A stretch of DNA of 64,000 nucleotides from Rhodothermia bacterium (GTDB lineage Bacteria; Bacteroidota; Rhodothermia; Balneolales; Balneolaceae): positions 558,001-622,000 of the forward strand of contig JAUICM010000001.1 in assembly GCA_030427885.1 (NCBI GenBank). The letters run 5' to 3'. Made by a program: the position numbers and the translations under genes. The notes beneath the pieces are model-generated. The model was not told where the DNA came from, did not search any database, and was given only the letters and a program-made list of their open reading frames with translations. Shown piece by piece: positions 18,774 to 47,050 of this stretch; the stretch's first letter is position 1, and every line of letters starts with the position of its first letter.

Positions 18774-20213
18774 TTGTCAGCTTCTAACAAATTTGACGCA
18801 GTAATCATAGGTTCCGGACCAAATGGATTGTCTGCTGGCATTCTACTTGCTCAGCATGGTCTGTCGGTTAAAATCATTGAAGCTAAAGATACGATCGGAG
18901 GCGGAACCCGGACACAGGAATTAACTGAACCTGGTTTTTATCATGATGTCTGTTCCGCAGTTCATCCAACAGGTATTGGCTCCCCTTTTCTGAACACTCT
19001 GCCACTACAGGATCACGGACTGGAATGGATCCACCCTGATCATCCTGTAGCTCATCCTCTTGAGCAAGGAAATGCAGTTATAGCCAGTCTGTCTCTTGAT
19101 GAAACACTACAAAGATTAGGCAAAGACGGCAAAAATTATGAGAATCTCGTTGCTGACTTCTCAAAGCATTGGAACAAGCTCTCAAAGGATATTCTAGGCC
19201 CGATCCGTATTCCTCACAGTCCGCTATTAATGGCTAAATTCGGATGGTATGGAATGTTATCAGCTAAGTTACTGGCAAATTCGATCTTCGACACCACTCC
19301 TCTGAAAGCTTATTTTGCTGGATTAGCAGCTCACAGCATCCTTCCACTTGAAAAGGCATTTACTGCTTCATTTGGATTAGCCTTTGCAGCTTCAATTCAT
19401 TCCGTGGGCTGGCCTGTTGCTAAAGGCGGATCTTCCACTATCACTAACGCCATGGCATCCTATTTCAAAAAACTAGGTGGTGTCATCGAAACAGGAAGAT
19501 ACATAAGCACCTTATCTGAAATTGATGAATCAGAACTTTTTCTCTTTGATCTGACCCCACATCAGATCGCATCCATAGCACAGCATGAATTACCCAATTC
19601 TCTGAAGAATAAACTTCTGAGCTATACCTATGGGCCCGGAGTATTTAAAATGGATTTCGCTCTTTCAGAGCCTGTGCCCTGGGAAAACCCGGAATGTTCC
19701 GGTGCTGGTACCCTACATCTTGGAGGAACTCTGGAAGAAATATCCTTCTCTGAAAGTCAGATCTGGAAAGGAAAACAACCGGACAAACCATTTGTATTGG
19801 TTTCTCAACCCAGCTTATTCGACCGTACAAGAGCTCCGGAAGGCAAACACACCCTGTGGGCTTATTGTCATGTCCCCAACGGTTCTGATGAAGATTGTTC
19901 TGAAATGATCATAAAGCAGATCGAACGATTCGCACCAGGATTCAGAGATGTGATTCTGGCCACACATACTATGAATGCCCACGAATACGAGGTCTATAAT
20001 CCGAATTATCTTGGTGGTGACATCAACGGCGGTTCCCAATCTTTTAAACAATTGATGGGACGACCTTTGCTAAAATGGGATCCTTATCAATTACCAGTGA
20101 AAGGAATGTATATCTGCTCATCATCCACTCCTCCCGGAGGCGGAGTACATGGAATGTGCGGATATCATGCAGCCCGATCAGTACTAAAAAATGAATATGA
20201 TATTAACATTTGA
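18774..20213 (+). CDS. FAD-dependent oxidoreductase, phytoene-dehydrogenase-like
   Basis: 479 residues from a TTG start 6 bases after the protease stop. The dinucleotide-binding GSGPNG (13-18) is followed by an acidic residue ending strand 2 (IIEAKD) and GGGTRTQEL, the typical FAD-contact region. A glycine-rich C-terminal block (TPPGGGVHGMCGYHAA) closes the FAD site. It resembles the PYROXD2/CrtI-like amine-oxidase superfamily. It could be a carotenoid- or lipid-acting desaturase or oxidase; the substrate is not clear. The Rieske oxygenase follows after 8 bases, which suggests a shared pathway. Confidence 0.88.
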   Translation: MSASNKFDAVIIGSGPNGLSAGILLAQHGLSVKIIEAKDTIGGGTRTQELTEPGFYHDVCSAVHPTGIGSPFLNTLPLQDHGLEWIHPDHPVAHPLEQGNAVIASLSLDETLQRLGKDGKNYENLVADFSKHWNKLSKDILGPIRIPHSPLLMAKFGWYGMLSAKLLANSIFDTTPLKAYFAGLAAHSILPLEKAFTASFGLAFAASIHSVGWPVAKGGSSTITNAMASYFKKLGGVIETGRYISTLSEIDESELFLFDLTPHQIASIAQHELPNSLKNKLLSYTYGPGVFKMDFALSEPVPWENPECSGAGTLHLGGTLEEISFSESQIWKGKQPDKPFVLVSQPSLFDRTRAPEGKHTLWAYCHVPNGSDEDCSEMIIKQIERFAPGFRDVILATHTMNAHEYEVYNPNYLGGDINGGSQSFKQLMGRPLLKWDPYQLPVKGMYICSSSTPPGGGVHGMCGYHAARSVLKNEYDINI

Positions 20214-34756: not shown

Positions 34757-34876
34757 AAATAAATATAAGCCTGACTGCTGCCCGATAGCGGTATGGCTTT
34801 TTCTAAGGTGAGCCAGGTCTCACCAAAGCATTTCCTTTATCTGAAATGCCTGTCATTTATTTCTAATCCAAACATC

Positions 34877-37800
34877 ATGTTAAACAAAACAATACGTTTT
34901 TTTCTTGAAAACAAACTCGTAGCCGTGTTGCTGCTTCTGCTTTTAGTTGTATGGGGAATTGTAGTTTCTCCATTTAACTGGAATACCGAAGTGTTGCCAA
35001 ATGATCCGGTTCCCGTGGATGCGATCCCAGATCTGGGTGAAAACCAACAGATCATATACACCACATGGTCGGGACAATCTCCCCAGGATGTAGAAGATCA
35101 GATCACATACCCGTTGACAGCTCAGCTCCTTACTGTTCCCTGTGTTAAAACAGTCCGAAGTACTTCTATAATTGGTGTATCCAGTATTTATGTGATCTTC
35201 AATGAGGATGTTGATTTTTACTGGAGCAGGTCAAGGATACTTGAAAAGCTTAACTCTCTTCCAGCAGGTACGCTTCCTGATGGAGTTCAACCAGCACTTG
35301 GTCCGGATGCAACTGCATTAGGGCAGGTTTTCTGGTACACACTGGAAGGCAGAGATAAAAACGGGAATCCTTCCGGAGGTTGGGACCCTCAGGAACTCCG
35401 CAGCATACAGGATTATTATGTCGGATATGCATTATCCGGAGCTGAGGGAGTTGCAGAAGTATCCCCAATCGGTGGTTATGTTAAAGAGTATCAGATCGAT
35501 GTAAACCCTAACCTCCTCCGGGTCTACAATGTTACACTTACCGAAGTATTTGATGCCGTTCGAAAAAGTAATACTGAAGTTGGTGCACGAACGGTTGAAT
35601 TGAATAATGCGGAGTATCTGGTACGGGGATTAGGATATATAAAGAATCTTAATGACCTCGAGGAATCGGTTGTAAAAGTAGTTGATAACACCCCGATACG
35701 AATCAAAGACGTTGCTTTTGTAACAATGGGACCAGCAATGAGGCGAGGAGCTCTGGATAAAGCAGGAGCTGAGGCTGTCGGAGCTGTTGTGGTTGCACGT
35801 CAGGGAGCTAATCCTCAGACTGTGATCGATAATGTAAAAGCCAAGATCGAGGAACTTTCACCAGGCTTACCTTCCAAAACCCTTCGCGACGGAAGCACTT
35901 CTAAAGTTACTATTATCCCATTTTATGACCGTTCTGAACTGATATCTGAAACACTTGGAACCCTTGAGGAAGCCCTGACCCTTGAGATCCTGATCACCAT
36001 CATTGTGATCGTGGTCATGGTCATGAATCTCCGGACTTCTTTTTTGATATCAGCAATGTTACCGGTAGCTGTGCTTATGACCTTCATTGCGATGAAATAT
36101 GGTGGAGTAGATGCTAATATCGTTGCTCTATCCGGTATCGCGATAGCTATCGGTACAATCGTGGATATGGGCGTGATACTTTCTGAGAATATGCTCAGGC
36201 ATATAGAAAACAGGAAAGAAAATGAACCGCTTCTCGAAGTGATATACAATGCAACAACTGAGGTGGCTTCTGCGGTAATAACAGCGGTATCAACCACGAT
36301 CGTAAGCTTCCTTCCGGTATTTACTATGATCGCAGCTGAAGGCAAACTATTCAAGCCACTCGCCTACACAAAAACTTTTGCTCTCCTGGCCTCCATTATT
36401 ATTTCAATCACACTCATACCTCCTTTTGCACACTGGTTATTCTCAATCAGGATCAATAAGAAAGTCATCAAATTAGTATGGAATACTGCCCTTTTTATTA
36501 CAGGAATTGTTCTTCTGTTTACCGGACCTGTTTGGGCTGGTGTCGCATTATCCGGATTCGGGATTATTAATGGTCTTACTCTCTTTCTCTCAAACAAGTA
36601 TGGATCCAAAGCGATATGGCTTAATAATGCATTGAGTGTAGCGGTAGTTTGTGTGTTACTTTCCGAGAGCTGGCTCCCTCTCGGTCCTTCCATCTCATTC
36701 ACCGGAAATCTGAGCTTTGTTATTCTTTTGATCGGCTTGATTCTGCTCTTCTTCTGGCTGGTGATCAGATATTATGAGTCACTTATATCCTGGTGTCTTG
36801 ATCATAAACTTACATTTTTATCGATACCAACATTCTTTGTTATTCTGGGACTTACAATCTGGCTGGGATTTAACGGGGTATTCGGATTCATCGGAAAAAC
36901 AACCGGCCTTGACAACACTAAGATCTGGATGTCTGCCGAGGAACAATTTCCGGGTTTAGGCAAAGAATTTATGCCAGCTCTTGATGAAGGCGCCTTTCTG
37001 CTCATGCCTACAACCATGCCTCATGCAGGTGTTGAAGAAGCACTGGATGTAATGCAAAAGATAGATATGGCAGTCGCTGCTATCCCGGAAGTAGAAAATG
37101 TAGTTGGTAAAATGGGCAGGGTCAATTCCGCACTCGACCCGGCACCTATCTCCATGTATGAAAATCTCATTGAATATAAATCTGAATATAAAACGGATGA
37201 TGATGGCCGCCGGATCCGATATAGAGTAGATGATTCAGGATCATTTTTAAGGGATGAACAAGATCAACTTATCCCTGATCCTGATGGAAAGTACTTCCGT
37301 CAGTGGCGGGATCATATCCATTCTCCTGATGATATCTGGAAAGAGATCGTGGCTGCAGCGCGTATTCCCGGCACTACATCAGCTCCAAAACTTCAACCGA
37401 TACAAACCCGTCTGGTTATGCTTCAGTCGGGCATGAGAGCACCTATGGGGGTTAAAATTAAAGGACCAGATCTCAAATCTATTGAAACTTACGGACTCAG
37501 ACTCGAAGAACTACTCAGAGAAGTACCGGGAGTCAATCCTTCTTCTGTTTTTGCAGATAGAATTGTTGGAAAACCCTATCTGGAAATAAACTGGAACAGA
37601 ACTCAACTTGCCCGTTTTGGTCTGAGTGTTCAGGACGTTCAGCATTTTGTGACAGTGGGCTTAGGTGGAATGCCTGTTTCTACTTCGGTTGAAGGTCGCG
37701 AACGTTATCCTATACGCGTTCGCTTTGCCAGGGATTTCAGAGATTCACCTGAATCCATTTCGAGCCTGCTTGTTCCTACTAAAACCGGAACACAGGTTCC

Positions 37801-38620
37801 TCTGTCCCAACTTGCGGAAATTGATTTTCGTCGGGGACCGCAGGCTATTAAAAGTGAAGATACTTTTCTTATTGGCTATGTAATCTTTGATAAGATGAGT
37901 GACTTCGCTGAGGTCGAAGTAGTTGAAAACGCCCGAAACTACATTCAGCAGCAGATAAGTGATGGTAAGCTGATGGTACCGTCAGGAATTAGTTTTGAAT
38001 TTGCAGGTAATTATGAAAACCAGATTCGGGCAGAACAAAGATTGGGTATCATCCTCCCTGTTGCTCTGATCGCGATCTTCCTGATCATGTACTTCCAGTT
38101 CAGATCAGCAGCCACAACTGGAATGATCTTTACCAGCATATTTGTAGCCTGGGCCGGTGGGTTTTTACTTGTCTGGCTTTATGGCCAATCCTGGTTCCTG
38201 AATTTCGATTTATTCGGACAGAATCTTCGGGATCTGTTTCAAATGGGAACTGTAAACCTGAGCGTGGCCGTCTGGGTCGGGTTTATTGCTTTATTCGGTG
38301 TTGCTTCCGACGGAGGTGTGGTCATGGCAACATACCTGGATCAGTTATTTGATCGGGATAAACCAACATCTAAAGAAGCAATCAAAGCAGTTGTTGTTGA
38401 GGCAAGCTCAAGAAGAATACGACCTACTCTCATGACCACCGCTACAACCATTCTTGCCCTGTTGCCGGTACTCACTTCTATGGGTCGTGGAGCAGATATC
38501 ATGGTTCCAATGGCCATTCCAAGTGTTGGAGGTATGCTCCTCCAGATCATCACCTTGTTTGTGGTACCAGTCCTTTATGCTATGTGGAAAGAATTCAAAT
38601 TAACAAGGAGTTCCAAATGA
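34877..38620 (+). CDS. cusA: CusA/CzcA-type heavy-metal RND efflux pump
   Basis: About 1247 residues from ATG at 34877 (MLNKTIRFF). The upstream in-frame ATG at 34793 adds a non-homologous polar tail and was not used. HME-RND signatures: PVDAIPDLGENQ after TM1, WSGQSPQDVEDQITYPL, GIAIAIGTIVDMGVILSENMLR in TM4, and a C-terminal DGGVVMATYLDQL, then RRIRPTLMTTATTILALLP. It is about 200 residues longer than E. coli CusA. The extra mass includes extra hydrophobic helices around residues 510-650 and a polar segment (about 780-830). It exports metal across the outer membrane with TolC and CusB, driven by protons. Confidence 0.94.
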   Translation: MLNKTIRFFLENKLVAVLLLLLLVVWGIVVSPFNWNTEVLPNDPVPVDAIPDLGENQQIIYTTWSGQSPQDVEDQITYPLTAQLLTVPCVKTVRSTSIIGVSSIYVIFNEDVDFYWSRSRILEKLNSLPAGTLPDGVQPALGPDATALGQVFWYTLEGRDKNGNPSGGWDPQELRSIQDYYVGYALSGAEGVAEVSPIGGYVKEYQIDVNPNLLRVYNVTLTEVFDAVRKSNTEVGARTVELNNAEYLVRGLGYIKNLNDLEESVVKVVDNTPIRIKDVAFVTMGPAMRRGALDKAGAEAVGAVVVARQGANPQTVIDNVKAKIEELSPGLPSKTLRDGSTSKVTIIPFYDRSELISETLGTLEEALTLEILITIIVIVVMVMNLRTSFLISAMLPVAVLMTFIAMKYGGVDANIVALSGIAIAIGTIVDMGVILSENMLRHIENRKENEPLLEVIYNATTEVASAVITAVSTTIVSFLPVFTMIAAEGKLFKPLAYTKTFALLASIIISITLIPPFAHWLFSIRINKKVIKLVWNTALFITGIVLLFTGPVWAGVALSGFGIINGLTLFLSNKYGSKAIWLNNALSVAVVCVLLSESWLPLGPSISFTGNLSFVILLIGLILLFFWLVIRYYESLISWCLDHKLTFLSIPTFFVILGLTIWLGFNGVFGFIGKTTGLDNTKIWMSAEEQFPGLGKEFMPALDEGAFLLMPTTMPHAGVEEALDVMQKIDMAVAAIPEVENVVGKMGRVNSALDPAPISMYENLIEYKSEYKTDDDGRRIRYRVDDSGSFLRDEQDQLIPDPDGKYFRQWRDHIHSPDDIWKEIVAAARIPGTTSAPKLQPIQTRLVMLQSGMRAPMGVKIKGPDLKSIETYGLRLEELLREVPGVNPSSVFADRIVGKPYLEINWNRTQLARFGLSVQDVQHFVTVGLGGMPVSTSVEGRERYPIRVRFARDFRDSPESISSLLVPTKTGTQVPLSQLAEIDFRRGPQAIKSEDTFLIGYVIFDKMSDFAEVEVVENARNYIQQQISDGKLMVPSGISFEFAGNYENQIRAEQRLGIILPVALIAIFLIMYFQFRSAATTGMIFTSIFVAWAGGFLLVWLYGQSWFLNFDLFGQNLRDLFQMGTVNLSVAVWVGFIALFGVASDGGVVMATYLDQLFDRDKPTSKEAIKAVVVEASSRRIRPTLMTTATTILALLPVLTSMGRGADIMVPMAIPSVGGMLLQIITLFVVPVLYAMWKEFKLTRSSK

Positions 38621-39927
38621 ATACCTGTGTTCAAAACATTAAAAAACCTTCCCGATCAGTATCACTATTAGGTATGATTCTGTACTTAATACTGGGAGTA
38701 TCCTCTGTTCATGCTCAGGACCTGGAAAATTATCAGATGGAAGCAGCTCAGAATAATCCGGGATTAAAAGCAGCCTATTTTGATTATCAGGCTTCCCTTC
38801 AGAAAAATGCCCAGGTACGTTCACTCCCCGATCCTGAGCTTTCTTTTGCTTACTTCATTAGTCCGGTTGAAACCCGTCTGGGACCTCAGAATGCCAGGAT
38901 ATCACTTACTCAGATGTTCCCGTGGTTTGGTTCTTTGAAAGACATGGAAAATGGAGCTCATTATGAGACCAAGGCTTTATTCCAACAGTTCAGAGGACAG
39001 CGTAATCTGTTGTTTTACCAGATGGAACTATTATGGGCAGAGCTCTATCAAATTGAAGAGAATATCCGTCTGGCCAACGAAAATCTGGATATCGTAAATA
39101 CCCTGGTTAGTATCAGTTTACGAAAATATGAAACCGGACTTGTACCACAGGTAGATGTGCTGAGGGCTCAGATTGAGCAGGAAGACCTGAAAACACATAT
39201 CAGGCTTCTTGAAGATAACAGGGAATTGTTGACCGCCCGTTTTAACGAAATGAGAAATGTAAATGCGGATGAACCAGTCGTTATCCCTGGTACATTATCT
39301 ACGAGTTCCATCAACACAGAAAACAAAGAGCAGATCTTACAGGAGATAAAAGCTAATAATCCTGATCTCGGTCAATTGCGCTCCCTTGAAGATGCTGCAC
39401 GTAATGCCATAGAAGTTGCATCCAATAATGGACTCCCCTCCTTTGGACTTGGGTTCGACTACATATTTACCGGAGAAAGATCCGATATCGCTTCATTATC
39501 AGATAACGGAAAAGATGCACTGGTGGCACGATTGAGCGTGAAGATTCCATTGTTCAGGGGTAAATACAAAGCTGAGACTCAGGAAGCTAGCTTAAAATTA
39601 AATGCGTCACGAAACAGACTCGATGCCAGGGAAAATCAACTCGAAACCAATTTCTATACAGCTATTCGAGATCTGGAAGATGCGCAACGCCGGTTCTCGC
39701 TTTATGATCTGCAACAGATTCAGCGGGTTGAACAAGCCGTTAACATACTCCTTCAATCTTACGCTTCTGATAATTCTCAGTTTGAAGAGATACTCAGACT
39801 GCATCGAAAATTATTCAACTATGAACTGGAACGGGTTAAAGCCCGCACCGATGAATACCAGACACTAAGCCTGATTAAATACCTCTCGGGAGGTCACAAC
39901 CTCACTACTGAAGAAATTAACTACTAA
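38617..39927 (+). CDS. cusC: TolC-family outer-membrane efflux protein
   Basis: About 436 residues from ATG at 38617, overlapping the cusA stop (ATGA) and preceded by AAGGAG. A signal peptide ends near SVHAQDL. The rest is long alpha-helical coiled-coil hairpins (for example LQKNAQVRSLPDPELSFAY, then ENIRLANENLDIVNTLVSI) typical of the outer-membrane efflux-protein repeat, present twice. With CusA and CusB it forms a channel across the periplasm and outer membrane. The adaptor gene follows after 10 bases. Confidence 0.93.
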   Translation: MNTCVQNIKKPSRSVSLLGMILYLILGVSSVHAQDLENYQMEAAQNNPGLKAAYFDYQASLQKNAQVRSLPDPELSFAYFISPVETRLGPQNARISLTQMFPWFGSLKDMENGAHYETKALFQQFRGQRNLLFYQMELLWAELYQIEENIRLANENLDIVNTLVSISLRKYETGLVPQVDVLRAQIEQEDLKTHIRLLEDNRELLTARFNEMRNVNADEPVVIPGTLSTSSINTENKEQILQEIKANNPDLGQLRSLEDAARNAIEVASNNGLPSFGLGFDYIFTGERSDIASLSDNGKDALVARLSVKIPLFRGKYKAETQEASLKLNASRNRLDARENQLETNFYTAIRDLEDAQRRFSLYDLQQIQRVEQAVNILLQSYASDNSQFEEILRLHRKLFNYELERVKARTDEYQTLSLIKYLSGGHNLTTEEINY

Positions 39928-39937
39928 CAGAACGATC

Positions 39938-41734
39938 ATGAAAAACCTCAAAAAGTATCTCATATACGCATTATTTGGAATAACAGGCATCATAATAGGT
40001 GCAATACTGTTCAATGGCGATTCAAGTCCGGAAACCATTGAGGATCATATTGCTGAGAATCATACCAATAACCAGGGAGAAGTTATTTATACCTGTAGTA
40101 TGCACCCACAGATAAGACAGAAAGAACCCGGGAACTGTCCTATTTGTGGAATGGAGCTTATTCCCGCAGATGAAGCTACTTCGGAAACAGGTCCCAACGA
40201 TCTGGTGATGACTGCCGCTTCTATTAAACTCGCAGAAATTGAAACTACCCCGGTAAGCAGAACAAAGCCTGTATCTGTATTGAGAATGCCCGGAAAGGTA
40301 GTCGCAAATCAGAATCTTACTTCTGCTATTACTGCTCATATTCCTGGTCGGATAATCAACCTTTATGTGGATTTTGAAGGAGATTATGTCCAAGCTGGAC
40401 AGAGAGTTGCATCCATCTACTCACCTGAGTTGATAGCTGCCCAGCAAGAACTCCTGGAAACAGCTAAATACAAAGAGCAAAATCCTATACTCTTTGAATC
40501 AGCTCGAAAAAAGCTTGAGCTGTGGGAGCTACCTGTCTCTACGATTGATGAGATCATTGAGAGTAAGACTGTAATGGAAAGTGTTGATATCGTTTCACCG
40601 GTTTCCGGATTTGTGCAGCGTATAAATGTACAGCGTCAGCAGCATGTCATGGAAGGTGCTCTTATGTACCAGGTAGCTGACCTTTCTTCCGTCTGGGTAA
40701 TGTTTGATGCTTTTGAAACACAAACATCATTACTCAAAAATGGACTTGAAATTCAATTCACAACGGTAGCGTACCCCGGGAAAACCTTCTCCGGAAAAGT
40801 AGATTATGTAGATCCGGTAATTCAGAATAATTCAAGATCATTAAGAGTTCGTGTTGAAGCTAAAAACAAGGGAAATATTTTGAAACCAAATATGCTCGTG
40901 GAAGGAACGCTTAACGCAACAACCAGCCAAACCGAGCAATTGATCGTTCCCCGTTCCGCCATTCTTTGGACCGGAACAAGATCAGTGGTATTTGTAAAGA
41001 AACCCAATACTGACAGCCCTACCTTTGCTGCCCGGGAAATAACACTGGGACAACGCGTTGGGGATTATTTCATCGTCATTGAAGGACTTAACGAAGGTGA
41101 AGAAGTAGTTACCAACGGTACTTTCAAACTTGACAGTGCGGCTCAGCTTGCTGATAAACTGAGCATGATGAACAGAGAACCCGGAACAGGAGCTGACAGA
41201 GTGGGACACGAAGGACACACTATGCCGGATACTCCTCCCTCTACTGTAAGCCCGGACGAAAATGCAATGAATGAGATATCGGTAGTACCAGCAGCTTTTA
41301 AGCAGCAACTCAAAGCTGTGGTATCAGAGTATCTTGTGCTTAAAGATGCACTTGCTTCAGCCGACAGGCCTCAAAGCACTGCTGCAGCTACGCTTGTTTC
41401 TTCTTCACTATCGGAGGTTAACATGGAACTCTTGAAGGGAGAGTCCCATATGGAGTGGATGAGATTTCTGAACAATCTGAAAACAAATTCCGAAATTATT
41501 GCTAAGGCAACATCAATTGAACAACAAAGGAAAGCATTTATGATCCTTTCTTCAAAACTGATTGAAGTTGTTAAACACTTTGAAATACCCGGAGTTTACT
41601 ATCAGCAATTCTGCCCTATGAGTAATAATGGTGATGGAGCCTATTGGCTAAGTGCTGATACCAACATCAATAATCCCTATCTGGATGATCAAATGCATGA
41701 TTGTGGAGAAACAATAACTAAGATCGAGCATTAG
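39938..41734 (+). CDS. cusB: CusB-type periplasmic adaptor with HMBD and DUF3347
   Basis: 598 residues. One N-terminal anchor helix (about 7-24). An HMBD module lies at about 50-77 (YTCSMHPQI, then CPICGMELIP). A membrane-fusion adaptor follows: barrel-sandwich/lipoyl halves around a helical hairpin (AAQQELLETAKYKEQ), and SGFVQRINVQRQQHV, IPRSAIL-like strands later. The C-terminal 150 residues are a DUF3347 domain (SEYLVLKDAL, then QFCPMSNNGDGAYWLS) with CP-M and C near the end. Both HMBD and DUF3347 probably bind copper and feed it into the pump. The three-gene order cusA-cusC-cusB is tightly spaced. Confidence 0.93.
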   Translation: MKNLKKYLIYALFGITGIIIGAILFNGDSSPETIEDHIAENHTNNQGEVIYTCSMHPQIRQKEPGNCPICGMELIPADEATSETGPNDLVMTAASIKLAEIETTPVSRTKPVSVLRMPGKVVANQNLTSAITAHIPGRIINLYVDFEGDYVQAGQRVASIYSPELIAAQQELLETAKYKEQNPILFESARKKLELWELPVSTIDEIIESKTVMESVDIVSPVSGFVQRINVQRQQHVMEGALMYQVADLSSVWVMFDAFETQTSLLKNGLEIQFTTVAYPGKTFSGKVDYVDPVIQNNSRSLRVRVEAKNKGNILKPNMLVEGTLNATTSQTEQLIVPRSAILWTGTRSVVFVKKPNTDSPTFAAREITLGQRVGDYFIVIEGLNEGEEVVTNGTFKLDSAAQLADKLSMMNREPGTGADRVGHEGHTMPDTPPSTVSPDENAMNEISVVPAAFKQQLKAVVSEYLVLKDALASADRPQSTAAATLVSSSLSEVNMELLKGESHMEWMRFLNNLKTNSEIIAKATSIEQQRKAFMILSSKLIEVVKHFEIPGVYYQQFCPMSNNGDGAYWLSADTNINNPYLDDQMHDCGETITKIEH

Positions 41735-41798
41735 AAGAAATACTTGAATATTGCCTATACCATGCTCTTTTTATAGATAATCAGATATAGTTAATGTT

Positions 41799-42998
41799 AT
41801 GAATGAGTTTCTGGAACTATTCGGTGAATCCACTAAAACATCTCTTGGTTTCTTCTGGAAATCAGGATGGGCGTTTATACTGGGATATTCTATTTCCGGA
41901 ATGATTCAGGCATTTGTCCCAAAGGGAAGCCTTACAAAACATATGGGTAAAGCCGATCTCGAAAGTATCTCTCTTTCCACGTTATTCGGAGCCGCCTCTT
42001 CTTCCTGCTCATTCGCTGCTCTGGCAGCTGCCAGAGCACTTATCAAAAAAGGAGCTCACTTTATATCTGCAGTTGCGTTCATGTTTGCATCCACCAACCT
42101 GGTCATTGAATTGGGCATACTAATACTCATCTTTCTCGGGTGGCAGTTTCTGGCCGCAGAGTTAATTGGAGGAATAGTGCTCATAGTAATAAGTAGTATT
42201 CTCATTAAAGTAACTTATCCTGAAAAGTGGATAAAAGAAGCTCGTCAAAAAGTAGAAAATGAAGGTGCTGAACTGGAAGATGAGTTTGACTGGAAAGACC
42301 GCATCAGTAGTAAGGAAGGATGGAAATTAGTAGGTCATAAATTCGTGAACGACTGGAAAATGGCCTGGGAAGACATCCTTATTGGATTTACCATTGCTGG
42401 TTTCATAGCTGTTCTGGTTCCCAATGAATTCTGGAGTAACTTATTTCTCGTTGATGCAACAGGCATTCCTTCATGGCTTATTCGTATTGAAAATGCACTC
42501 ATTGCTCCTTTTGTAGCAGCTTCAACATTTATAGGTTCTATGGGAAATATCCCTCTTGCAACTGTTTTGCAGAGTAATGGAGTTCTTTTTGCAGGAATAA
42601 TGGGCTTTATATACTCCGACCTGATGGTACCTCCGCTGGTCAGCATTAACGCAAAATATTATGGATGGAAAGTGGCTTTATACATAGCTGGTGTAATGTA
42701 TGTTAGTATTGTTATCACTGCATTGATCCTTAGTTACGCATTCTCTCTATTTGACATCATTCCCGAATCAATTCATGTTATAACTGAGATAACTCAATTT
42801 AAAATCGATTACACTTTTTGGCTGAATGTGGTTTTATTCTTGGTCTGTGGAGTAATGGTATGGCTGAATTTTTCCTACCTGAAAGATCATTCCATGAAAA
42901 TGATAGACATGGAAGGCAGCGGAAAATTGAAAAAAATTATTGTCAGAAGCTTAATTGTACTTAACCTGGCAGGATTACTCCTATTCTTATTGACCTGA
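41799..42998 (+). CDS. ArsP_1/SO_0444-type metal efflux permease
   Basis: 399 residues with about ten helices. The permease signature (PF03773 type) is in the first half: FGAASSSCSFAALAAARALIKKGA, with C70 in the helix. A charged loop separates two halves (about 145-190), and the second half has a matching FVAASTFIGSMGNIPLATVL. Members export methylarsenite (ArsP) or copper and zinc (SO_0444). The genomic setting favours a metal cation. It lies 64 bases behind cusB and before the small DUF2892 cluster. Confidence 0.85.
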   Translation: MNEFLELFGESTKTSLGFFWKSGWAFILGYSISGMIQAFVPKGSLTKHMGKADLESISLSTLFGAASSSCSFAALAAARALIKKGAHFISAVAFMFASTNLVIELGILILIFLGWQFLAAELIGGIVLIVISSILIKVTYPEKWIKEARQKVENEGAELEDEFDWKDRISSKEGWKLVGHKFVNDWKMAWEDILIGFTIAGFIAVLVPNEFWSNLFLVDATGIPSWLIRIENALIAPFVAASTFIGSMGNIPLATVLQSNGVLFAGIMGFIYSDLMVPPLVSINAKYYGWKVALYIAGVMYVSIVITALILSYAFSLFDIIPESIHVITEITQFKIDYTFWLNVVLFLVCGVMVWLNFSYLKDHSMKMIDMEGSGKLKKIIVRSLIVLNLAGLLLFLLT

Positions 42999-43395: not shown

Positions 43396-44055
43396 TCAGA
43401 GCTTCCTGATTATATTCACTCCGTCACGAACAGGTAACAGCACCTGCTCCACCCTCTTGTCTTCAGCAACCTTTCTGTTGAAGTCAGCAATGGCTTTTGC
43501 CTTGTTATCCTCTGGCTCAAGGACAGTTCCATCCCAAAGTACATTATCAGCTACTATCAGTCCCCCTTTTCGTAGTAAAGGCAGCGCCTGTTCGAAATAG
43601 AAACTGTATCTGAGCTTGTCCCCATCCAGATAAACTAAGTCGAATTCCTCATTCAGGGATTTAATGGAGTCCTGAGCGTTACCGGGAATCAATTGAATCT
43701 TATGCCCTACCCTTGAGTCCTCGAAGTGTTTACGGGCTATATTCTGATACCTCAGATTCATCTCCAGAGTAACCACTGTTCCGTCTTCAGGAAGTGCTTC
43801 TGCCATCATGATCGCTGAATAACCAGTAAAGGTTCCGATTTCCAGTATTCTTTTAGCCCCGGATATCTTAACTAGGATCTTCAGTAACTGCCCTACAACA
43901 CGTCCGCTGAGCATATCGATGTACTCTAGCTCTTCATCACTGGAGCGTATGAGATCTTTTATCTCCTCAGATTCAGGGGTAGTGTGTTCCTCCGAATAAT
44001 TATCTATTCTGGTATCCGTGATCGGAACGATCGGTTTGCCTCTGTGCTTCTTCAT
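43396..44055 (-). CDS. Family-3 O-methyltransferase (CCoAOMT-like)
   Basis: 219 residues. SAM-binding motif I is ILEIGTFTGYSAIMMAEALPEDG (about 85-107), followed by the acidic VVTLEMN. DLVYLDGDKLRYSFYFEQALPLLRKGG and ADNVLWDG carry the divalent-metal ligands and catalytic base region. This is the bacterial catechol/caffeoyl-CoA O-methyltransferase fold. Substrate unknown. Its ATG (44055) is only 2 bases from the acyltransferase start on the other strand, so the promoters of both must overlap coding DNA. Confidence 0.92.
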   Translation of the reverse strand: MKKHRGKPIVPITDTRIDNYSEEHTTPESEEIKDLIRSSDEELEYIDMLSGRVVGQLLKILVKISGAKRILEIGTFTGYSAIMMAEALPEDGTVVTLEMNLRYQNIARKHFEDSRVGHKIQLIPGNAQDSIKSLNEEFDLVYLDGDKLRYSFYFEQALPLLRKGGLIVADNVLWDGTVLEPEDNKAKAIADFNRKVAEDKRVEQVLLPVRDGVNIIRKL

Positions 44056-44057
44056 GA

Positions 44058-44735
44058 TTGAAAGATAAGACTGCTGACCCTATCATCACCAAAAAAGAAT
44101 TCGTGAGTTTTATACCTGCTAAAGAATCGAAATTATATATCTGGTTTTATTATCAGGTAACCCGGTTTTTACTCTGGCTCAGATTCAGAAAAGTAATCGT
44201 TACTTCTACGTATACACCGGATTCCGTTACCAGCAGCGTTTATTACCTCAATCATAATTACTGGTGGGACGGCCTGATCCCTCATTATCTCAATCAAAAG
44301 TACTTCCACCAGAATGCACGTGCGGTCATGGAAGAGAAACAAATGCACAAACATAAGTTCTTCTCTAAGATCGGAGCTTTTTCTATTGATCTGGATAAAA
44401 TTAAGAGCTCTGTTCAAAGTCTCAGATACGCACTCGAATCGCTTAAAAGACCCAACTCCTGTCTCTTTATTTATCCTGAAGGCGAAATACGCCCCGTCTC
44501 AGATTCAAAGCCTGCATTCAGAAACGGACTCTCCTGGTTGTATCAAAAGACGGAACATATCGATTTTGTTCCAGTGGCTATTTATATAGATCATTCAAAA
44601 GGAAATAAACCTGATCTCATCATCTCAATTGGAAATGAAGTTGATTATGATAAAGAATTGAGCAAGAATGAATTAACTATGCTATTTGAAGATTCTATTC
44701 TGAAAGAATTGAACAAACTAAAAGAGACTTTATAA
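44058..44735 (+). CDS. PlsC-type acyltransferase, candidate carotenoid ester synthase (CruD-like)
   Basis: 225 residues from a TTG start; a GTG near 44103 is another possible start. The PlsC catalytic motif H-x4-D is NHNYWWDG (about 72-79), and the second motif YPEGEIRP (about 135-142) binds the phosphate or glycerol. One helix (about 26-44) anchors it. It transfers an acyl chain to a hydroxyl. Chlorobial CruD, which acylates a carotenoid glucoside, is a member of this family. The CrtC-type and glycosyltransferase genes next door support that role here. Confidence 0.7.
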   Translation: MKDKTADPIITKKEFVSFIPAKESKLYIWFYYQVTRFLLWLRFRKVIVTSTYTPDSVTSSVYYLNHNYWWDGLIPHYLNQKYFHQNARAVMEEKQMHKHKFFSKIGAFSIDLDKIKSSVQSLRYALESLKRPNSCLFIYPEGEIRPVSDSKPAFRNGLSWLYQKTEHIDFVPVAIYIDHSKGNKPDLIISIGNEVDYDKELSKNELTMLFEDSILKELNKLKETL

Positions 44736-44783
44736 CTTTTTTGTCATTCGTAATTCGCTCTTCAATATTTGTATTCTCATGAT

Positions 44784-45842
44784 TTACCAGGTTAGCTCGT
44801 AAAAGCCTTTTGATCTCTGAACCCAGTGAGGTTTCTTAGCTAGATATCTAAGACGCATATTGATCATCCACCAGTATTTTTCATCATAGATCCTGCCCGG
44901 TTTTATGTACTCCGATATCCCTGTTGCTGATGAAATTTCAGAACCATTGTTCATTATGCATTCACTCAAAAATCGCTGGTAAAAAGGGCCATTATCCAGG
45001 ATCGTACTTTGCTGAATACTAACTTCTGTTTGCTTACCCGTTAATTTCAGTTTTCGGGCACTATTGAGCCCCAACAGAGTTTTTTGATGATCCAACAATT
45101 CATGCTCCTCAAGTAAATCTATCACCTTCCCTTCCTTTTGATCGATCAGCCATCCTTTTTTCTGTTCTTTCCCATCCTGATTCATCAGGTAATAGATCAA
45201 TGTACTTCTCTTAAAATGAAACCTGCCCCAGTACCAGTCATCGAAACTGTCTTTCATGGGTTCATATCCCACATTATGGTCATGATATCCGGTTCCTGTG
45301 AATCCAATGCTCCTCTTGCCCTTTCTTCCATTGATATTAACTGACCCGGTTACCTTGGCTCTGGGCTGTAGTAAATTCCAGCGGTGTAGTTCCTCTTCAC
45401 TTTCTTCGATCAGATCTTCATCGCAGGTTTCTGAAAGGAATTTAAGTTTTGCCTCAATAGTGTGACCTGATGCTAATGCCTGATTGATCAAGAGCTCATA
45501 TTCTACTAATCCTCCTGCTTCTTCTCTTCTGAAGAAATTGGTACCTAACGAGACTGTTTGTTCCTCATCATTCCAATGGAATTTCCCGGACTTATATTCC
45601 TGAAAGCTGTAGTATTCGCATTTTCCTTTATGATACAAAGAGACACTTATGGCGGGATGATCAGCCGGACTGTGATCTGAATACTGAATGTATTCGGGAG
45701 AAAATGGGTTTCCTTCATAAAAGATGATCACTACAGACCAGTTCTTATCCAGACTGATTGCATCAAAATACCACCATTCGTAACCACCCGGTGGTTTTTC
45801 GGGATCAAAACGTTCGTCACTAAGTTTAGAAGAAATGTTCAT
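44784..45842 (-). CDS. CrtC-type carotenoid 1,2-hydratase / lipocalin-like
   Basis: 352 residues from ATG at 45842; a TTG five codons upstream is also open. There are no membrane helices. Family signatures are GYEWWYFDAISLDK near the start and SIGFTGTGYHDHNVGYEP, then FDDWYWGRFHFKRSTLIYYL in the middle. This is a two-domain lipocalin-like fold. CrtC adds water across the C1-C2 double bond of psi-end carotenoids, producing the tertiary hydroxyl that is then glycosylated. The acyltransferase and GT2 genes flank it. Confidence in family is good, and in substrate it is moderate. Confidence 0.75.
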   Translation of the reverse strand: MNISSKLSDERFDPEKPPGGYEWWYFDAISLDKNWSVVIIFYEGNPFSPEYIQYSDHSPADHPAISVSLYHKGKCEYYSFQEYKSGKFHWNDEEQTVSLGTNFFRREEAGGLVEYELLINQALASGHTIEAKLKFLSETCDEDLIEESEEELHRWNLLQPRAKVTGSVNINGRKGKRSIGFTGTGYHDHNVGYEPMKDSFDDWYWGRFHFKRSTLIYYLMNQDGKEQKKGWLIDQKEGKVIDLLEEHELLDHQKTLLGLNSARKLKLTGKQTEVSIQQSTILDNGPFYQRFLSECIMNNGSEISSATGISEYIKPGRIYDEKYWWMINMRLRYLAKKPHWVQRSKGFYELTW

Positions 45843-45898
45843 GGTAATTAAAATCAATCCGGTGTTATGAACTGCACACTTTAGTACTTTAAAATAAT

Positions 45899-47050
45899 AT
45901 GATCTATCTACTCTGCTTCGGGCTTTTTTATTTATCCGGCACTTTTTTAGTGTTACTCAGGAACAGGTACGAATTCAAATCTCTGAAAGATAGTTCCTCC
46001 GTTTCTGAATCCGAAGCTCCATTTGTGAGTATTTGTGTTCCAGCCCGAAATGAAAAAGATGTGATCGAGCATTGTGTAACCAGTGCTCTTAAGCAGGATT
46101 ATGAGCATTTTGAAGTTCTGGTACTAGACGACAACTCGACTGATGGCACAACTGATATCCTCAGTCAATTATCAGGTATCATCTCCAACCTCAGACACAT
46201 AAAGGGTGAAGAAAAACCGGAAGAATGGCATGGAAAACCCTGGGCTTGCCATCAGCTTTACCAAAAAGCTAAAGGAGAAGTTCTCCTATTCATTGATGCG
46301 GATGTTTGGATTGAAAGTGATACACTAAAAAAGGCCGTCTGTGAATTAAAGCGCTATGATATGATCACCGTTTGGCCACAGCAGATCCTGCGGAGTTTCT
46401 GGGAACGAATGATCATCCCCCTTGTTTATTTTGCATTACTCACCCTGTTGCCCTCAAAATACGTGGAGAGATCTCCCAGATGGCTGCCAGTGGGTTTGAG
46501 ACACTTACTGGATCCTAAATTCTCAGCTGCCTGTGGTCAGTTCATTGCATACAACCGCTCCGTACTTGAGACACTGAATGGCTTTGAGAGAATCAAAAAA
46601 GCGATCGTTGATGATGTTGAAATGGCTAAGATCGTAAAGCAGAACGGATATATGATGCGAATGTTCACTGGCGTTGATATTGTGTATTGCCGGATGTACA
46701 AGAATCACCGGGAGATCTGGAACGGATTCAAAAAGAACTTCCTTGCCGGCTTCGGTAATCAGGCACTTTTCATCTTAATGGGTATTCTGCATCTTGTGGT
46801 CTTTCTGTTTCCCGTTGTCGCTCTGTTCTATTCCTGGTATTCCGGCTTTACTGATGGTATGATCCTCTCAGGTTTTACTCTGCTTCTGATCTTTGCTCAA
46901 CGCTCCCTCATCGACCACTGGTTTTCCTGGAATATTATGTATGGATTGCTACACCCATTCTCGGTTCTTTGGTTCCAGATTCTAGGCATTGTGAGCCTGT
47001 TTAGGCATTATCTTGGTTTTAAAAATTCCTGGAAAGGCAGGGATGTTTAA
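45899..47050 (+). CDS. GT2 glycosyltransferase, candidate carotenoid glycosyltransferase (CruC-like)
   Basis: 383 residues. An N-terminal helix (1-18) is followed by a GT-A domain: VSICVPARNEKDVIE, LDDNSTDGT (donor binding), IDADVW (DxD metal site), and VDDVEMAK (catalytic acid/base ED-type motif). Two to three C-terminal helices (about 285-365) anchor it in the inner membrane. This layout matches CruC and related carotenoid glycosyltransferases. It is divergent from the CrtC-like gene across 56 bases. A role in attaching a sugar to hydroxylated carotenoid is inference from context. Confidence 0.75.
   Translation: MIYLLCFGLFYLSGTFLVLLRNRYEFKSLKDSSSVSESEAPFVSICVPARNEKDVIEHCVTSALKQDYEHFEVLVLDDNSTDGTTDILSQLSGIISNLRHIKGEEKPEEWHGKPWACHQLYQKAKGEVLLFIDADVWIESDTLKKAVCELKRYDMITVWPQQILRSFWERMIIPLVYFALLTLLPSKYVERSPRWLPVGLRHLLDPKFSAACGQFIAYNRSVLETLNGFERIKKAIVDDVEMAKIVKQNGYMMRMFTGVDIVYCRMYKNHREIWNGFKKNFLAGFGNQALFILMGILHLVVFLFPVVALFYSWYSGFTDGMILSGFTLLLIFAQRSLIDHWFSWNIMYGLLHPFSVLWFQILGIVSLFRHYLGFKNSWKGRDV

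Follow-up and report, generated by a model that had tools for sequence, protein, structure and literature searches.

The three adjacent genes at positions 44058 to 47050 of the window, meaning the whole stretch of 64,000 nucleotides that was analysed, are interpreted as the part of the host's carotenoid pathway that tailors the psi end, a reading to which a probability of about 0.88 is given. They code for a CruD-type acyltransferase, a CrtC-type hydratase and a membrane-bound CruC-type glycosyltransferase of the GT2 family. The reading is based on the presence of the genes, their homology, catalytic residues, a predicted fold, synteny and co-occurrence across genomes. It is well supported that the block represents a new case of a known pathway and not a new pathway.

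The Gene Block and Its Surroundings

The three ORFs are all intact, and they lie side by side as the preliminary description of this DNA had reported. The parts of the locus are the following:

43396 to 44055, minus strand: class I O-methyltransferase (PF01596, assigned by Pfam), divergent neighbour of the block
44058 to 44735, plus strand: acyltransferase, CruD-type (PlsC fold, NHX4D box), 225 amino acids, PF01553; start codon TTG, or an alternative about 15 codons further in
44784 to 45857, minus strand: CrtC-type carotenoid 1',2'-hydratase, 357 amino acids, assigned by catalytic residues, fold and homology; the invariant Met6, at about 45842, is the likelier start
45858 to 45898, no strand: short intergenic stretch separating the divergent hydratase and GT2 genes, 41 bp long, or about 56 bp with translation beginning at Met6
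45899 to 47050, plus strand: CruC-type membrane GT2 glycosyltransferase, 383 amino acids, DAD motif D133-A134-D135

The motifs quoted in the preliminary description were found in the proteins: NHNYWWDG in the acyltransferase corresponds to the PlsC HX4D box (H66 and D71), and both GYEWWYFDA and DWYWGRFHF are present in the CrtC-type protein. Pfam and NCBIfam concur on the broad families of the three proteins, with 25.7 bits on PF01553 for the acyltransferase (cut-off 23) and 99 bits on PF00535 for the GT2, and weakly so for the CrtC-type protein. In most relatives of the family, the divergent hydratase and GT2 genes are about 50-60 bp apart, and the gap probably serves both as a promoter region. 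Immediately upstream (34793 to 42998), an RND-type heavy-metal efflux set was read by eye, comprising a CusA-like pump, a TolC-like protein and a CusB-like protein with a metal-binding domain, followed by an ArsP-type permease (PF03773).

Conservation of the Block

The gene order and the alternating orientation are maintained in the family of the host and in two sister families. The CrtC-type protein was identified in 113 of the 245 genomes of the class, all 113 of them within the order of the window. Among the 30 nearest loci, the GT2 gene is the divergent neighbour of the CrtC gene in every case, with constant relative orientation, and the acyltransferase gene is the convergent neighbour in 28; of the two exceptions, one locus is incomplete and one genome carries the acyltransferase on another contig. 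Since this arrangement is constant at identities of roughly 40-60%, chance adjacency is untenable. The genes xerC and hpf continue the block in relatives, as they do in the window. Families f2 and f3 have retained the block, and a Balneolaceae record also carries a homologue. In family f1, at least one genome (G041, genus g11) has the acyltransferase gene relocated away from the block. Family f5 provides a point on the other side: in two loci the acyltransferase gene is still convergent on the CrtC gene, but the GT2 gene does not adjoin it.

In two loci of family f5 (L050, 3680-7590, and L052, 9298-13557), the neighbours of CrtC were read by eye as a FadL/OmpP1-like porin and a GDSL-type lipase, and the O-methyltransferase lies about 3 kb from CrtC. 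Outside the class of the window, genome G380 of family f48 has the GT2, CrtC and acyltransferase genes adjacent to each other (L077, 4187-6996). The three-gene cluster may be older than the order, or may have been assembled twice.

Identity of the Glycosyltransferase and the Acyltransferase

For the GT2, the features of the CruC type were identified, namely the PF00535 domain, invariant D133 and D135, and hydrophobic stretches at the N- and C-terminus. In the acyltransferase, both PlsC boxes, HX4D and PEG, are present, with H66, D71, P140 and G142 invariant and E141 nearly so. Alternatively, the two proteins might serve other lipids, such as hopanoids, glycerolipids or polysaccharide precursors, and only neighbour a carotenoid gene. 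Two findings point in that direction: among the NCBIfam models, the GT2 matches HpnB (TIGR03469) best, at 169 bits against a cut-off of 379, and the only solved structure matched by the acyltransferase profile is the 1-acylglycerol-3-phosphate acyltransferase 5kym. Trees of 40 GT2 and 34 acyltransferase sequences led to the opposite result. In the GT2 tree, the protein of the window belongs to a 100/99 clade of its order, within a 91/96 set which holds CruC and GT2s from carotenoid clusters, and true HpnB (540 bits; adjoining hpnH, hpnA and shc) forms a separate 100/100 clade. The sequence placement groups the GT2 with CruC, not as its exact sister, with some deep forks unsettled. In the acyltransferase tree, a 99/96 split separates E. 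coli PlsC and the LPLAT of the host from the window protein, and the Thermus sequence is long-branched. The tree check named in the preliminary description thus came out in favour of CruC, CruD and the carotenoid-cluster homologues. An HpnB identity for the GT2 and a PlsC identity for the acyltransferase were ruled out by the same trees.

The homologues are also located within carotenoid clusters of several phyla. In families f30, f52, f42, f27 and f43, acyltransferase and GT2 genes are adjacent to each other beside homologues of crtI, crtB and crtD; CruF was confirmed by Pfam in the clusters of three of these five families and was placed by coordinates in the others. Acyltransferase-GT2 pairs adjoin crtI on plasmids of Azospirillum, Gluconobacter, Cytobacillus, Palleronia and Microvirga, and a further plasmid match was found in Niallia, in a record without annotation. 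Taken with the trees, a role of the pair in other lipids is very improbable.

The CrtC-Type Hydratase

The assignment of the second protein to CrtC, as originally proposed, is borne out by its catalytic residues. For Rubrivivax CrtC, it was shown that alanine variants at H239, W241, Y266 and D268 are inactive (PMC4717167). The equivalent residues of the window protein are H158, W160, Y191 and D193, which are invariant in alignments A1 and A4; one alignment spans the window protein, the Chlorobi proteins and the CrtC proteins of Sulfitobacter and Novosphingobium. The catalytic motif was identified in 46 of 47 homologues of CrtC from the order. A homologue in genome G126 of family f5 (L051, 9404-10417) lacks all four catalytic residues: the H-x-W motif is absent and GCHYH replaces GYHDHN, so that this protein is, judged by its sequence, probably dead or repurposed.

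The structure of the CrtC-type protein was predicted with a pLDDT of 92.2, and the model has the AttH-like fold of the CrtC superfamily, matching AttH (2ich, E 1.5e-10), kievitone hydratase (7a0t, E 1.3e-11) and also Diels-Alderases. AttH served as the template for the published CrtC model (PMC4717167). A comparison of the CrtC profile with PDB sequences gave nothing significant, and PF07143, the Pfam model for CrtC, had no match in the host genome, where no positive control matched either. On NF045922, the equivalog model for CrtC of the Rhodobacter type with a cut-off of 400, Sulfitobacter CrtC scored 506.9 bits and the C. tepidum-like CrtC 38.6 bits; the protein of the window is not filed under this model because its 55.7 bits are under the cut-off. 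NCBIfam cut-offs were not accepted as membership tests, being misleading: the C. tepidum-like proteins fall short of them too.

An alternative is that the protein is another member of the AttH/Diels-Alderase group, for example, a lyase or isomerase acting on the carotenoid end; Diels-Alderases and a 25-phosphosteroid lyase are among its nearest folds, and its identity to purple-bacterial CrtC is only about 20%. Such a function is highly unlikely: all four essential residues are retained, across genomes the protein is exchanged almost exclusively with the unrelated hydratase CruF, and a glycosyltransferase acting on the 1'-hydroxyl requires a hydratase in a host with no detectable CruF.

The O-Methyltransferase

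The preliminary description suggested that the divergent O-methyltransferase might be a fourth tailoring enzyme, in which case the module would work as proposed but its product would be methylated. In favour of this, the O-methyltransferase gene keeps its divergent position next to the block in families f1, f3 and f4, as well as in the majority of the f2 loci that were read, and in family f5 it lies 2-3 kb away. In contrast, in six Chlorobi genomes no match was identified at E 1e-10, and in genomes of the Rhodothermales and of families f52 and f30 the gene is remote from the crt genes, at a distance of 0.7-2.8 Mb in G149, G167, G168, G197 and G448. Outside the order, it has no tie to acyltransferase-GT2 pairs. 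The distribution of the O-methyltransferase gene does not follow that of the pathway, and a connection between the two is improbable; a methylated product has only a very slim chance, and the suggestion of a fourth enzyme is dropped.

The Remaining Pathway and the Predicted Product

Carotenoid genes elsewhere in the genome, the absence of which would have spoken against the original proposal, were identified in the host: crtB at position 108354 of contig C3, crtI at 37762 of C5, a crtD-like gene at 681482 of C2 and a gene for a CrtY-type lycopene cyclase at 244167 of C13. For the crtD-like gene, the best equivalog model is CrtD with 384 bits, under the cut-off of 500, which counts against the overall reading of the pathway. 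CruF (PF04240) was not found in the host genome, and a rhodopsin search, for which there was no positive control, was negative. Within the window, a 479-amino-acid ORF (18774 to 20213) shows a match to the crtI family model that is confined to its first 49 positions, in the FAD-binding region (E 2.8e-8), and is probably another FAD-dependent oxidoreductase.

In the predicted pathway, CrtB and CrtI would form lycopene, one end of which would be closed by the CrtY-type cyclase. At the open end, the CrtC-type enzyme would use acid catalysis to hydrate the 1',2' double bond, with Asp193 assisted by His158 and Tyr191; for CrtC, a mechanism was described in which the Asp protonates the substrate and water captures the cation (PMC4717167), and it is carried over here to the protein of the window by inference. 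The CrtD-like desaturase would introduce a 3',4' double bond, the CruC-type GT2 would attach a sugar, probably glucose, to the 1'-hydroxyl, and the CruD-type acyltransferase would link a fatty acid to this sugar through an ester bond. Such a pathway would yield a carotenoid glycosyl ester anchored in the membrane, of the salinixanthin or hydroxychlorobactene-glucoside-laurate type. A salinixanthin-like 1'-glycosyl fatty-acid ester of a monocyclic carotenoid is expected; the enzyme activities, the order of the steps, the sugar, the acyl chain and the way in which the other end is modified are all deduced. The proposal that the three genes complete this tailoring path agrees with the trees, the catalytic residues and the upstream carotenoid genes.

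Probable Exchange of the Hydratase and Carotenoids in the Balneolales

All three proteins of the window were searched against 394 genomes of the phylum. The GT2 is present in 152 of the 155 genomes bearing CrtC. Both GT2 and acyltransferase were found in 200 genomes, which contain CrtC only in 148 cases, CruF (PF04240) only in 42, both in 3 and neither in 7; exactly one type of hydratase is thus present in 190 of 200. Fisher tests on this co-occurrence ignore relatedness, so that the split by family is the safer statement. At this level the two hydratases separate cleanly: CrtC is present in families f1, f2, f3, f32, f33, f41, f48 and f54, and CruF in families f4, f16, f22, f23, f27, f30, f42, f43, f45, f52, f53 and others. 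Families f25 and f28 have mostly CrtC, with a few genomes containing both hydratases. Genome G108, from the order of the window, is without CrtC; here the block of O-methyltransferase, acyltransferase and GT2 genes is intact, and CruF adjoins a CrtYcd-type cyclase, which was assigned by eye.

These distributions make it reasonably likely that the psi-end hydratase of the phylum is an exchangeable slot ahead of a constant CruC/CruD pair, that CrtC and CruF were swapped several times, including inside the order (G108), and that carotenoid glycosyl esters, so far unreported, are made by the Balneolales as a whole. The principle of the exchange is already known, with a review describing that CruF occurs in bacteria lacking crtC (PMC6013536); what is added here is its scale and the unchanging pair downstream. 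The occurrence of CrtC or CruF in otherwise equal pathways is a natural experiment on a question which the hydratase literature calls open (PMC6013536).

In a genome-based taxonomy paper, carotenoids were reported only from the Rhodothermia and not from the Balneolia (PMC5167729). In contrast to this statement, the tailoring module is widespread in the order, for which 129 genomes were available, and crtI-family genes were identified in all 84 genomes of good quality. A literature search for glycosylated carotenoids in the Balneolaceae came up empty and gave no pigment data for the organism or the family. The module predicts a specific pigment class for the order, whose members are mostly marine and salt-loving and have received very little study of their pigments.

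Comparison to Known Systems

The closest comparison among the Chlorobi is provided by genome G324, which we take to be Chlorobaculum tepidum TLS. To its putative CrtC, CruD and CruC, the proteins of the window are 31% identical over 340 amino acids (E 8e-39), 32% over 183 (E 2e-29) and 37% over 379 (E 3e-74), respectively. Family f28 corresponds to the Chlorobiaceae, and a MAG of the Chlorobiales contains a CrtC with 97% identity. The three genes are scattered in G324, at 0.312, 0.911 and 1.885 Mb, whereas in the window they form one block on alternating strands, which agrees with the different gene order pointed out earlier. In C. tepidum, the pathway with CrtC, CruC and CruD leads to OH-chlorobactene glucoside laurate and OH-gamma-carotene glucoside laurate (PMC6166724); the three enzymes are homologous to those of the window and the predicted order of the steps is the same (PMC6166724, Fig. 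1).

For the salinixanthin pathway of Salinibacter ruber and Rhodothermus marinus, CruD-like and CruC-like enzymes were described (PMC5822342), and the product predicted here is likewise a monocyclic carotenoid acyl glycoside. The analogy to Salinibacter drawn in the preliminary description therefore holds for the related acyl glycoside and fails for CrtC: no match to CrtC was obtained in genomes of the class that lie outside the order, and where such a genome has a hydratase match, it is CruF, the hydratase used on the Salinibacter and Rhodothermus side. In R. marinus, the 1',2'-hydratase was reported as not found (PMC5822342). In the Rhodothermus-like genome G167, a single ORF of 586 amino acids fuses a CruF (PF04240) domain to phytoene synthase, CrtB (L101, 5097-6857), and the same place is occupied in L100 of genome G168. 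This CruF-CrtB fusion would supply the missing hydratase.

Two further systems share parts of the module. On a plasmid of Thermus thermophilus, the pair is present together with crtB, a cyclase-domain gene and crtI; as in the window, the acyltransferase gene adjoins the GT2 gene, there between the lycopene-cyclase-domain gene and crtI. Unlike the window, this cluster has a cytochrome P450, CrtC was not found there, and the sequences are very distant. In Thermomicrobium roseum, CruC, an acyltransferase activity and a 1,1' hydroxylase lead to acylated carotenoid glycosides (PMC2615216). Here, the difference to the window is that the hydroxylase was described with a fused acyltransferase domain and that the product is a diglycoside (PMC2615216).
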